Below are positions 7,251 to 12,245 of a stretch of DNA of 64,000 bases, one piece after another; within the stretch, counting starts at the first letter, position 1, and each line of letters begins with the position of its first letter. Where the stretch lies: contig JANWYD010000017.1 in assembly GCA_025057155.1 (NCBI GenBank), positions 1 through 64,000 on the forward strand, written 5' to 3'. The notes below the pieces were generated by a model. The model was not told where the DNA came from. It made no database searches and was given only the letters and a program-made list of their open reading frames with translations. This DNA comes from Chloroflexaceae bacterium (lineage in GTDB: Bacteria > Chloroflexota > Chloroflexia > Chloroflexales > Chloroflexaceae). The translations under genes and the position numbers were made by a program.

Positions 7251-7463
7251 TTACTCCTTATCGTCCTCTATCGAGACCAGGCCATACACCGTTCCGGCGT
7301 ATACCATGCTGCTGATCAACGGATGCGGACGCGCGCCAGGCTGTACGCGGCGGTAGATGTAGCGTGGCCCGTCCAGATGTTCGACGCAGAGGTAGTCGCC
7401 GTAGAGATGGAAGTTGACCGCATCGGCGCTATCGGCGAGATCATCGTCGTATGTGTTGTGCAT
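7251..7463 (-). CDS. Small acidic protein at the end of the nif operon
   Basis: 70 residues, start at ATG 7463 chosen because GAGGA lies 7 bases upstream; longer frames overlap nifK without a ribosome site. I do not recognise the family. It is acidic at both ends (YDDDLADSADAV, SIEDDKE), with a central segment rich in aromatic residues (FHLYGDYLCVEHLDGPRYIYRR). It starts 65 bases after the nifK stop on the same strand and precedes the operon hairpin. It could be a small accessory subunit or assembly factor of this nitrogenase; no similarity to AnfG or VnfG is obvious by eye. Confidence 0.6.
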   Translation of the reverse strand: MHNTYDDDLADSADAVNFHLYGDYLCVEHLDGPRYIYRRVQPGARPHPLISSMVYAGTVYGLVSIEDDKE

Positions 7464-7527
7464 AGGCTTGTCCTCATCCATGGGGCCGGGCAGCAAGGCG
7501 GCTTCCGGCGCCAGCCGCCCGGCCCGG

Positions 7528-8952
7528 TCAAACGCGCTTGCCGTTGCCATTGGGGAGGCTGATCGGCACGTAACTCGGCCCCTCGACGCCCCGCTCCACC
7601 AGCGTATTGCTGACAATCGAACTGGCCCGCCGTTCGAAGATCAGGTTGGTGATCTCGTCAACCAGCGCGGTCGAGCCGTTGTAGCCGACGATGCTGCGGC
7701 GATGGTAGCCGAAGCGATCCTCTACCGGGAACCCGACCCGCAGCAGCGGGATGCCCTCGGCGTCGGCGATGAACTTGCCCTTCGAGTGGCCGATCAGCAG
7801 GTCCACCGGGCGGGCCTTGATCCGCTTGTGCAGTTCGTGCAGATCGCCCTTGAGGATGATCTCGCTCTCGACGCCCAGTTCCTCGGTGAGTTCGACCATG
7901 TGCTCGGCCCAGGGCATATTTTCGGCGGCGGTCAGAATGTAGGCCGGCGTCATGCCCATCTCGGCCACCAGGCCCACGAGGCCCTCAAGCAGATCGGGAT
8001 CGCCATAGAGGGCCACCCGTAACCCGGTGGTAAACATGTGCGTATCCACCAGGGCGTCGAGGAGCCGGGCCCGTTCCACCTGCAAGGCTTCGGGAATAAC
8101 GTGGTCGGTGATCTCCACCAGTGTGTCCACGAAAGCGTCGGTGTTGGCCAGGCCGATGGGCATGGTCAGCACGCGGGCCGGAACGCCATAGCGCCGCTCG
8201 TAGATGCGGGCCGCTTCGCCGCCGACGTAGCGTTGCAGCGCGATCGTTGCCAGGGATTTGGAGGAGCTGCGCAGTTCCTCGACCGTTGTGCCGCCGCGGG
8301 GGAAGTGCGGGCGCGGTTCGTAGTAGCCCCCGTCGAGGGTCTCGGAGTAGTCGGTGATCCACAGGCCGTGCAGCCCCATCTCGCGCAGGATGTGCTTCAG
8401 TTCGCGGATGTCGCCCGGGTTGACCCAGCCAGGGATAATGTTGATCTTGCCGTTGGTCTCGCCCTTCTTCTTGCGCCGGTCGGGCAGATTGCTGGCAATC
8501 TCCTTGAGGAAGTTATCAAAGCCCGTGGTATGGTTGCCAATGTACGACGGGGTCTTGACCGAGAGGATGGGAATGGTCACTTCCGGATGCCGCTCGAGAA
8601 ACTCGTCAATGATGCCCGGAATATCGTCGCCGATCGTCTCGGAGAGGCAGGTCGAGCAGACCATAATCAGCGTGGGATGGAAGCGCTCCCAGATGTTCTT
8701 GAGCGCGGCCAGCAGGTTGCCCTTGCCGCCGTAGACGGTGGTCTTTTCGGTGAGTGAGGTGGTGGCCACCTCGACCGGTTCACGGAAGTGGCGGGCCATC
8801 TGATGGCGGGGATAAGTGGCGCAGCCCTGGGAGCCATGGTTGATGGTGATCGCCCCGTGGATGCCGTAGTTGGCCAGCATCGCCCCGATCGGCGCGCACG
8901 AGCGCGTCGGATTAATGGCGACCGCCCGGTCCTGTATCGTTATGGCGCTCAT
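7528..8952 (-). CDS. nifK: Nitrogenase beta-chain-like protein
   Basis: 474 residues. With NifD it should form the catalytic component of a nitrogenase-type reductase; the beta chain supplies half of the P-cluster ligands. Three P-cluster cysteines are visible: INPTRSCAPIGA (Cys19), NHGSQGCATYPRHQ (Cys44) and VCSTCLSETIGDD (about Cys101). The C-terminal half has the expected GHSKGKFIADAEGIPLLRVGFPV-type segment. It lacks the long N-terminal extension of Mo-nitrogenase NifK, so is nearer in size to AnfK/VnfK. It begins on the base following the nifD stop codon, implying translational coupling. Confidence 0.92.
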   Translation of the reverse strand: MSAITIQDRAVAINPTRSCAPIGAMLANYGIHGAITINHGSQGCATYPRHQMARHFREPVEVATTSLTEKTTVYGGKGNLLAALKNIWERFHPTLIMVCSTCLSETIGDDIPGIIDEFLERHPEVTIPILSVKTPSYIGNHTTGFDNFLKEIASNLPDRRKKKGETNGKINIIPGWVNPGDIRELKHILREMGLHGLWITDYSETLDGGYYEPRPHFPRGGTTVEELRSSSKSLATIALQRYVGGEAARIYERRYGVPARVLTMPIGLANTDAFVDTLVEITDHVIPEALQVERARLLDALVDTHMFTTGLRVALYGDPDLLEGLVGLVAEMGMTPAYILTAAENMPWAEHMVELTEELGVESEIILKGDLHELHKRIKARPVDLLIGHSKGKFIADAEGIPLLRVGFPVEDRFGYHRRSIVGYNGSTALVDEITNLIFERRASSIVSNTLVERGVEGPSYVPISLPNGNGKRV

Positions 8953-10380: not shown

Positions 10381-11288
10381 ACGGCATCTCCTTTGCGAGC
10401 CAGGAACCTGGGAATGCAGACGCGATCGCCCGTGCCGCAGCCTTCTTCGCCAGGGACGCCGATGGCGTCCGCCCGGCAGCGGGTGCAGTTGCGGAACTGT
10501 TCGATGATCGGCGCGCAGGCGTTGCGGACCTGGTTGACCTGGTCAAGGGTTGGTTCGGGCAGATGGGCGAACTTCGCCAGGGGCAGCATGGGGATGATGT
10601 TCATAATGTAGGCGCCGTTATCCTTGACCGCGCGGGCAATGGCGGGCATATGCTGGTCGTTGACGCCCGGAATCAGCACCGAATTGACCTTCACGACCAT
10701 GCCCCGCCAGGCCGCCTCGCGCAGCCCCTCCATCTGCTGGTGGTGCAGCAGGTCAAAGGCGGCGCGGCCCCGGTAGGTTTTGCCCCTGTACCGCACGTAC
10801 TCGTAGATCTGCTCGCCGATCGCCGGGTCCACAGCATTGATGGTGATGGTGAGGGTGGTGATCCCGGCGCGCTCGATGGCGTCAATGCGGTCAGGCAGCA
10901 GCAGGCCGTTGGTCGAGAGGCAGCGGATGAGCTGCGGAAACTCGTCGCGGGCGCGCTCGAAGGTGGCGAGGGTGGCCTCGTTGGCCAGGGCGTCGCCAGG
11001 TCCGGCCACGCCGAGCACCTTCAGGCGCGCGTCTCGGGCGATCGCCGCGCGCACCGTGTCGAGCGCCTCGTCGGGCGAGAGCACGCGCATGGTGACGCCG
11101 GGGCGATTCTCGTTGGGGCAGGCGTACTTGCGGACGCAATAGTTGCACTTGATATTGCAGCGCGGCGCCACCGGCACGTGGATGCGTCCGAAGCGGAAGT
11201 GGGCCGCGCGACTGTAGCAGGGGTGGGTGTCGAGATCCACCTTTGGTATGCAACTGCCGGCACAGCCTGCGGGGGACTGCGTGTTCAT
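10377..11288 (-). CDS. nifB: NifB, radical-SAM cofactor assembly protein (no NifX domain)
   Basis: 303 residues from ATG 11288, chosen because GGAG lies 6-7 bases upstream; the ATG at 11309 has no ribosome site. NifB makes the carbide-containing [8Fe-9S-C] precursor (NifB-co) of nitrogenase cofactors. The radical-SAM motif is CNIKCNYC (C-x3-C-x2-C), preceded by HPCYS...FGRIHVPVAPR and followed by NENRPGV; GVAGPGDALAN and the C-terminal paired cysteines of NCTRCRAD are also typical. The C-terminal NifX/NafY-like domain of proteobacterial NifB is absent. It lies between nifH and nifD and overlaps nifD by four bases. Confidence 0.93.
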   Translation of the reverse strand: MNTQSPAGCAGSCIPKVDLDTHPCYSRAAHFRFGRIHVPVAPRCNIKCNYCVRKYACPNENRPGVTMRVLSPDEALDTVRAAIARDARLKVLGVAGPGDALANEATLATFERARDEFPQLIRCLSTNGLLLPDRIDAIERAGITTLTITINAVDPAIGEQIYEYVRYRGKTYRGRAAFDLLHHQQMEGLREAAWRGMVVKVNSVLIPGVNDQHMPAIARAVKDNGAYIMNIIPMLPLAKFAHLPEPTLDQVNQVRNACAPIIEQFRNCTRCRADAIGVPGEEGCGTGDRVCIPRFLARKGDAV

Positions 11289-11423
11289 CGTGATCTCCAG
11301 GCAGTGCATCCGGCGCCGATTCTTGCCCGCATGGCGGGAGAGGAGGGTTGCTGAGAGGGAGTGCTCTCCCAGGCCCTCCCGCGCAAGAACCTGCCGGATG
11401 CACGATCGCTCTCCAGCGCGGCC

Positions 11424-12245
11424 TCAATCCACAATGCCATACTCGCGCATCAGATCCTCGAGTTCGTCCTGGGTGATCGGGGTGGGGATGGTGAAATCGG
11501 TATTGCTGTCGATCTTGCGAGCGAGCTCACGGTACTCCTCGGCCTGGGGCAGGCTGGGGTCGTAATCTATGACCGTCTTCTTGTTGATCTCGGCCCGCTG
11601 CACATCTTTGCTGCGCGGCACAAAGTGGATCATCTTGGAGTTGATCCGTCGCGCGAACTCTTCGACCAGGGCGCGCTCGTTTTCCACCAGGCGCGAGTTG
11701 CAGATCAGCCCGCCCAGCCGGGCATAGCCGCGCTCGGCGAACTTTTTGATGCCTTTACAGATGTTATTGGCAGCGAACAGGGCCATGTATTCGCCAGAGC
11801 AGACGATATAGATCTCCTCGGCGTAGCCTTCACGGATGGGCATGGCAAAACCGCCGCAGACCACGTCGCCCAGAACATCATAGAACACGTAGTCGAGATC
11901 GTCCTCGTAGGCCCCCAGGGTCTCCAGGGTCTGGATTGCGGTGATCACCCCCCGACCGCCGCAGCCAACCCCCGGCTCCGGCCCGCCCGATTCGACGCAC
12001 TTGACCATCCCATAGCCGGGCACCATCACCCGCTCGAGGCTGACCCGCTCAGCGCCAAAGTCGCGCAGGGTGTCGAGCACCGAAGGTTGGCGAACGCCGC
12101 CCAGCAGCAGTCGCGTACAGTCGGCTTTGGGGTCGCATCCGACGACCATCACCTTCTTGCCCATCGAGGCCAGGGCGGCTGCAATGTTCTGCTGGGTTGT
12201 AGACTTGCCGATCCCGCCTTTGCCGTAAAACGCTACCTGACGCAT
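11424..12245 (-). CDS. nifH: Nitrogenase iron protein
   Basis: 273 residues from ATG 12245, with AAGGAG 7 bases upstream; an extended frame to 12440 is not coding-like. NifH is the ATP-dependent electron donor to NifDK. Seen: P-loop GKGGIGKST (residues 8-16), switch region DPKADCTR, the [4Fe-4S] cysteines in [10 protein letters not shown] and [10 protein letters not shown], and the Arg of CGGRG that is ADP-ribosylated in regulated homologues. It is first in the operon, 135 bp before nifB. The gap (11289-11423) contains a GC-rich inverted segment that could modulate the H:B ratio. Confidence 0.96.

Follow-up and report, generated by a model that had tools for sequence, protein, structure and literature searches.

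A nitrogenase operon of the Roseiflexus type, predicted to be NifEN-independent, in a Chloroflexaceae bacterium

Organization of the nif operon

The stretch of DNA analysed here (64,000 nucleotides, hereafter the window, from the first letter of which operon coordinates are counted) belongs to contig JANWYD010000017.1 of a Chloroflexaceae bacterium, a green phototroph, and carries a nitrogen fixation (nif) operon on its minus strand, between positions 12245 and 7251. Five open reading frames (ORFs) lie in the order nifH-nifB-nifD-nifK-ORF5, all of them intact, starting with ATG and free of internal stops. The first, nifH (11424..12245), encodes a dinitrogenase reductase of 273 amino acids (aa) that scored 444.6 bits against TIGR01287 (cut-off 394.35), and its start position is the same in relatives. 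After a spacer of 114 bases follows nifB (10377..11309), which encodes a radical-SAM NifB-co synthase of 310 aa without the C-terminal part of long NifB proteins; its best match, TIGR01290, reached 322.2 bits, below the cut-off of 343.65, and covers profile positions 8-279 of 441 only, while the CxxxCxxC motif is present as C51/C55/C58. The end of nifB overlaps by 4 bases with nifD (8953..10380; alpha subunit, 475 aa), which exceeds the TIGR01862 and TIGR01284 cut-offs and is followed with a gap of 0 bases by nifK (7528..8952; beta subunit, 474 aa). NifK scored 424.5 bits against PF00148, and its best NCBIfam match, TIGR01286, fell below the cut-off (360.6 bits compared with 427.3).

The last gene of the operon, ORF5 (7251..7463), begins 64 bases after nifK and encodes a conserved acidic protein of 70 aa. 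Directly 3' of it, on the same strand, lies a terminator-like hairpin with a T-run (7170..7202; 14 pairs, 9 of them G-C, then CCTGTTTTTG), which is suggestive only, as the 6.2-kb region contains 11 terminator-like sites where shuffled sequence gives 3.9. These gene identities, four nif genes and a gene of 70 codons, had been proposed in a sequence-only reading of the same DNA made without database searches, and were borne out by the NCBIfam and Pfam scans and by the intact frames.

Classification of NifD and NifK

As that reading had stated, NifD possesses the cysteines of the P-cluster (C51, C77 and C139) and both ligands of the cofactor (C257 and H422). When NifK was aligned with solved beta chains, its cysteines C19, C44 and C102 were found at the conserved positions, and the claim that it lacks the long N-terminal extension of molybdenum (Mo)-type NifK was upheld: aligned with long MoFe beta chains, its residue 5 falls at their residue 55-56, and with the short-type 1mio its residue 6 falls at residue 10. 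The N-terminus of NifD aligns with chains of the vanadium (VnfD) and iron-only (AnfD) nitrogenases, and likewise with PDB 9spz. The AnfD/VnfD-like character noted earlier is therefore real, but it is not diagnostic of those enzymes, as NifD retains an arginine at R85 where four Vnf/Anf rows of the alignment have lysine. This residue corresponds to R96 in Azotobacter numbering (PMC11573651). C257, H422 and R85 are retained in all 36 rows of the clade of Roseiflexus (Clfx) type.

Against the profile of canonical Mo-type NifD, TIGR01282, NifD reached 464.1 bits and missed the cut-off of 653.55; it also remained far below those of VNFD (TIGR01860, 461.6 of 823.1 bits) and ANFD (TIGR01861, 417.3 of 873.8 bits). 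The model TIGR01284, the cut-off of which it exceeds, is named nitrogenase alpha subunit, alternative type. Automatic annotation might label this protein an alternative nitrogenase, since TIGR01284 is exceeded and the other three models are missed.

Phylogenetic trees were constructed from 50 NifD rows, selected from 66 loci and other sources, and from 41 rows of NifD, NifE, NifK and NifN jointly, truncated loci and near-duplicates being excluded from both. In-frame stops in three rows of anaerobic methanotrophic archaea (ANME) and in the row of locus L097 are natural gene ends or lie at most 2 codons from them. The window NifD was placed with Roseiflexus and Oscillochloris rows (support 100/97, 11 rows) and outside canonical Mo-type NifD, and NifK with Roseiflexus (100/100, 3 rows in the joint tree), which confirms the affiliation suggested before. 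Membership in Vnf/Anf was rejected, given that NifD lies outside that clade, scores below both cut-offs and has arginine at R85. Vanadium and iron-only systems share the N-terminal motif of the alpha subunit with the window NifD, and differ from it in the lysine, in their separate clade and in a G subunit gene located between D and K. There is no room for anfG or vnfG between nifD and nifK of the window; a genome-wide search for a G gene was not made.

Survey of the draft genome

The genome is a draft of 5.1 Mb in 189 contigs, with an estimated completeness of 100%. Seven places in it match PF00148, namely NifD, NifK, BchB, BchN, BchY, BchZ (519.6 bits, just under its cut-off of 529) and one broken remnant on contig C3. 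With all seven assigned otherwise and no NifE above cut-off, neither nifE nor nifN is found in the draft genome, and the absence of nifEN that had been noted for the window thus holds genome-wide. The idea of a nifEN pair hidden elsewhere was rejected, the places other than NifD and NifK being Bch subunits and the remnant. The canonical nifHDKENB system of Mo-nitrogenase, by contrast, has both genes. No NifV exceeded its cut-off anywhere in the genome (four matches were sub-threshold), in agreement with the earlier statement that nifV is missing. Two proteins of NifU_N type were found, as well as a protein of the NifX/NafY family (PF02579, 127 aa; contig C24) that is unlinked to the operon. 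As evidence for a cofactor carrier the latter is weak, since the control also gave matches in Thermotoga maritima and Thermus composti.

Relatives with the same nitrogenase

NifD proteins with at least 73% identity occur in 28 of the 61 genomes searched, the window genome included, and all of these belong to the same order. The gene order nifH-nifB-nifD-nifK was observed in all 19 relatives that were fetched. No NifE was found above cut-off in any of the 61 genomes, where NifN was not sought separately; the 31 places with E <=1e-30 comprise the 28 NifD and three proteins from other nitrogenase-like clusters. In the control for this search, two of the 14 control genomes were matched, both above cut-off.

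One of the relatives, G042, is taken here as the probable genome of Roseiflexus sp. RS-1. Its proteins are 92% (NifH), 78% (NifB), 88% (NifD) and 89% (NifK) identical to those of the window, and the two NifD sequences agree at all 17 sites checked, including C257, H422, C51, C77, C139 and R85. The two systems also have in common the gene order, the lack of NifE above cut-off and an ORF5 downstream of nifK, while RS-1 belongs to another taxonomic family and its enzyme has been characterised biochemically, the window enzyme being known here from genes. Candidatus Viridilinea and Oscillochloris share with the window the NifD clade and, in named relatives, ORF5; their NifB and ORF5 are more divergent. 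For Ca. Viridilinea halotolerans, nifHBDK is reported, with nifEN and nifV absent (PMC6346205).

A scan of named species genomes yielded the 66 loci, among them loci of Hydrothermarchaeota, Bathyarchaeota, ANME and Argoarchaeum. Archaeal NifD is 53-73% identical in the comparison with ANME and Hydrothermarchaeota. PF00148 was then counted in 20 genomes, for most of which completeness is not given and where mis-binning is possible for single metagenome-assembled genomes. Among the archaea, two places each were found in G061, G062, G064 (all three of Hydrothermarchaeota type), G065, G066 and G074; three each in G068-G071, the third being a frame of 365-375 aa with no assigned identity; one in G063, where nifD lies at a contig end; seven, fragments included, in G073; and twelve in ANME-1 G072. 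Among the Chloroflexota, G042, G075, G077, G078 and G079 have six, G076 seven and Chloroheliaceae G067 ten. The places of G067 and G072 were only partly assigned, so that absence of NifEN is not claimed for these two.

These counts agree with published patterns, as earlier work describes ANME clusters that lack nifE and nifN and are closest to Roseiflexus (PMC9012536), and Hydrothermarchaeota with NifHDKBI1I2 (PMC6759336). The NifHI1I2DK system of the ANME 'methane seep group', published as lacking nifE and nifN (PMC9012536), resembles the window in this respect. The ANME and Hydrothermarchaeota systems differ from the window in being archaeal, in retaining nifI1-nifI2 and in having no ORF5, and at ANME loci no nifB adjoins nifDK, with the exception of L131, where nifB is 2.6 kb away.

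Proposed cofactor assembly without NifEN

The sequence-only reading treated Roseiflexus-type enzymes as uncharacterised and cofactor maturation without NifEN as an open question. Both points have been overtaken by a report of 2024, in which RS-1 NifH, NifB and NifDK were expressed in Escherichia coli and, with S-adenosylmethionine, molybdate and homocitrate, gave an active enzyme in vitro (PMC11573651). According to the same source, NifH, NifB and apo-NifDK suffice for FeMo-co in vitro, and NifEN, NifX and NafY are not needed; reduction of N2 was shown with loaded Azotobacter NifU added, and assembly inside NifDK is the interpretation of its authors. The RS-1 cofactor depends on Mo and homocitrate, with a strong preference for Mo and no substitution by vanadate (PMC11573651). 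The earlier suggestion that NifB-co is itself the final cofactor is disfavoured because of this dependence.

The window operon most probably encodes a NifEN-independent Mo-nitrogenase of the Roseiflexus (Clfx) type; judged from its genes, it is a natural homologue of the RS-1 system and so a known kind of nitrogenase. The same self-scaffolding route may be inferred for it on account of the 78-92% identity of the four proteins, the equal residues at the cluster sites, the same operon and the lack of nifE and nifN. NifB would make NifB-co, which would be taken up by apo-NifDK and completed there to FeMo-co with NifH, ATP, molybdate and homocitrate, and the matured NifDK would then work as nitrogenase, with ORF5 as a presumably dedicated, non-essential accessory.

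In the window organism, Mo may be supplied by a ModA-type molybdate-binding protein, the one found in the genome (197 bits, cut-off 62.5), and homocitrate by LysS, the homocitrate synthase with which lysine is made by way of aminoadipate. One of the four NifV matches, C11:13009-14058, exceeds the LysS cut-off (432 bits compared with 413.55) and is followed by ORFs that by eye resemble homoaconitase and an isopropylmalate-type dehydrogenase; LysS may thus serve as the homocitrate source in this organism. Across the 61 genomes, LysS exceeded its cut-off in 34, comprising 16 of the 28 with nifD and 18 of the 33 without, and in none of the nine from the family of G042. As a general homocitrate source of the clade it was rejected on these counts. 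Unlike the window genome, G042 has no LysS above cut-off, and its one match at E <=1e-60 in this search has the score and frame length of LeuA.

Several observations weigh against a working NifEN-independent Mo-nitrogenase in the window organism. The reconstituted RS-1 activity was about one fifth of that of Azotobacter (PMC11573651), and the window NifB is only 78% identical to its counterpart in G042. LysS stays below cut-off or is missing in 12 of the 28 nifD-bearing genomes, G042 included; six of these 12 have a completeness of at least 99%, and homocitrate supply across the clade is therefore left unexplained by this enzyme. Function in vivo is unproven, since both Roseiflexus isolates fail to grow when fixed nitrogen is withheld (PMC9241655), although acetylene reduction has been reported for Oscillochloris trichoides (PMC7216921).

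Two other explanations have been considered. An enzyme that works without Mo, on NifB-co itself or on an all-iron cofactor derived from it, would accord with the VnfD/AnfD-like N-terminus, with the alternative-type model exceeded by NifD and with some activity of RS-1 in vitro without added Mo. This appears very improbable in view of R85, the position of NifD outside Vnf/Anf and the ModA homologue, and when molybdate was left out RS-1 gave 14 nmol per min and mg, compared with 130 with molybdate in the temperature screen; activity without molybdate was not raised by vanadate or iron, and tungstate in at least 50-fold amount lowered activity (PMC11573651). An operon that is expressed and yet fixes no N2 in vivo, serving some other reduction or being no longer fully functional, would fit the missing nifEN and nifV and the need of the Roseiflexus isolates for fixed nitrogen despite their nifH transcripts (PMC9600594). 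It is considered unlikely, given that nifK is under purifying selection (ratio of nonsynonymous to synonymous substitution rates, dN/dS, of 0.06-0.10 in three pairs), as is ORF5, that C257, H422 and R85 are retained throughout the 36 clade rows, and that the RS-1 enzyme reduces N2 in vitro. A NifEN-independent Mo-nitrogenase is the preferred interpretation.

ORF5, the fifth gene

For ORF5, 23 orthologues were aligned, namely the window protein and those of 22 of 28 Chloroflexota loci; of the six others, five are on contigs that break off within nifD or nifK or shortly beyond, and L141 has no ORF5. The proteins are 67-82 aa long with an isoelectric point of 4.1-5.1 in all 23, and G22, L25, Y37, Y60, L62, I65 and E66 are invariant besides the start. 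The ORF5 profile matches 27 of the 61 genomes, all in the same order: 27 of the 28 with nifD (the exception being G045) and none of the 33 without (Fisher p 1.8e-16, a statistic that ignores shared ancestry and linkage). In 23 of these 27 the gene follows nifK on the nif contig; the other four have it on a separate contig at a distance of 0 to 1,303 bases from an end, as would be expected from assembly breaks. ORF5 is under purifying selection, with dN/dS of 0.16-0.43 in ten pairs within the genus of the window.

No family could be assigned to ORF5: among the 23 members the best Pfam match had an E of 0.63 and the best NCBIfam match, to an unrelated enzyme, 0.0064. NifT/FixU, a described nif accessory family modelled in both libraries, was considered for ORF5 and was not among these best matches. 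No convincing match was obtained against PHROGs (three members searched) or PDB sequences, and plasmids gave one match with E 0.2. An AlphaFold2 model with a mean pLDDT of 78.6 comprises five strands, confidence being low for residues 1-12, and searches with this model by Foldseek and VIA-align returned 505 and 204 weak matches, none with E <=0.001 or Z >=5, respectively. Searches of open-access papers showed no description of ORF5, and the main text of PMC11573651 contains none of the terms hypothetical, downstream, homocitrate synthase, nifV and nifT.

Likely an accessory of the nitrogenase complex in this order, ORF5 is not needed for NifEN-independence, because it was not found in the archaeal genomes or in the Chloroheliaceae genome and is not among the assay components named for RS-1, which are NifH, NifB and NifDK only (PMC11573651). 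Specifically, there was no match in any of the 12 archaeal genomes with this type of NifD or in two of four further Chloroflexota genomes with it (G045 and a Chloroheliaceae genome), and it was not found at the 38 non-Chloroflexota loci of the 66-locus set; a role as a requirement for NifEN-independence was rejected on this basis. A function as iron-sulphur carrier was also rejected, as seven of the 23 orthologues contain no cysteine. It is conceivable, if on balance doubtful, that ORF5 is a true fifth component, acting as a small, acidic protein of beta strands only that attaches to NifDK (or NifH) and in vivo promotes self-scaffolding, stability or switching. If so, the modest RS-1 activity might be due in part to the lack of ORF5 in the assay, and the minimal set in these bacteria would be five genes rather than four.

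Two further observations concern this part of the operon. In G045 (L064), where ORF5 is missing, a ferritin-like gene was recognized by eye downstream of nifK. Another small protein, of about 76-102 aa, recurs after ORF5 in L062, L065, L066, L069 and L070, all from relatives of the family.

Origin of the operon

The 20 rows of Chloroflexota in the NifD tree are embedded among archaeal rows, with SZUA-158 nearest (100/97), followed by the Hydrothermarchaeota type (100/100 for the whole), while Bathyarchaeota (80/63) and ANME lie outside this group. The gap after nifH varies among 19 loci. Two P-II-like ORFs of nifI1-nifI2 type separate nifH from nifB in L105-L108, Chloroheliaceae L141 and Chloroflexaceae L100, and nifH from nifD in ANME-type L111, whereas a ferritin-like gene takes their place between nifH and nifB in L097 (2390-2962) and L099 (1206-1787); the remaining ten gaps measure 18-175 bases, as in the window. 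One L100 P-II ORF and the L097 ferritin were named by NCBIfam and the other gap genes were read by eye. This distribution fits an operon that came from archaea, or is shared with them, and was trimmed afterwards.

Both loss and ancestral absence of NifEN have been discussed (PMC7216921). Here, a secondary loss of NifEN from a system that has archaeal relatives appears somewhat more probable, as a tentative view. In the joint tree all NifD, those without NifEN included, group together at 99/99 with NifE outside, and NifK is separated from NifN at 91/91; forcing the alpha subunits of the clade outside D and E was rejected (p of the approximately unbiased test, p-AU, 0.010 and 0.019). The position of the Chloroflexota within an archaeal grade, and the retention of nifI1-nifI2 in some members only, also speak against a relic that diverged before the NifD/NifE and NifK/NifN duplications and never had NifEN. 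Such a relic is a serious alternative, though the less probable one: it was proposed in PMC11573651 and is one of two models in PMC7216921, where Clfx adjoins the root in three of five trees with the Bch outgroup, and the corresponding topology on the beta side was not rejected by our test (p 0.155), both of which count against loss. Long branches are involved in these tests, and the groups were named after the tree had been seen.

Other nitrogenase-like clusters and neighbouring genes

The remnant on contig C3 (G000:C3:66502-67553; L010 about 4500-5555, minus strand) is a broken nitrogenase-like gene, in which a NifH-like protein stops at a TGA after its first 149 residues and, in another frame, the C-terminal half of a PF00148 protein comes next. 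Intact clusters related to it were observed in L074 (1429-3723, G032) and L072 (5556-8138, G005), where an Fe protein like NifH and a PF00148 subunit are fused in one ORF of 764 and 860 aa, respectively (in L074 the two parts are residues 4-265 and 343 onwards). Adjoining are a second PF00148-like ORF (431 aa) and then, by eye, a methionine-synthase/UROD-like ORF. The best NCBIfam matches of the L074 fusion are CfbC and NifH, both below cut-off, and an Fe protein and component 1 in a single chain looks unusual. A second nif-like cluster in G032 (L073, contig C142, 6320-11112) contains a NifH-like ORF, a NifB-like ORF (by eye) and two PF00148 ORFs, with ABC-transporter-like ORFs nearby, and is reminiscent of methylthio-alkane reductase clusters. 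Near the nif operon of the window, 5802-6299 on the minus strand appears by eye to encode a small secreted cupredoxin-like protein with a lipoprotein-type signal and a C-terminal motif resembling a copper site.

Conclusions

Compact sets of nitrogenase genes are sought for introduction into plants and are relevant to the origin of nitrogen fixation. To the single enzyme of this sort that has been reconstituted in vitro, the window adds a natural homologue, the interest of which lies in ORF5, the homocitrate gap and the question of loss or relic. Homocitrate, required as an additive in vitro, has differing sources among the members and is unexplained in G042, taken as the genome of the strain studied. 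An undescribed small gene belongs to the nif package in this bacterial order, and there is evidence that the small nif set may have arisen by reduction and not be primitive.

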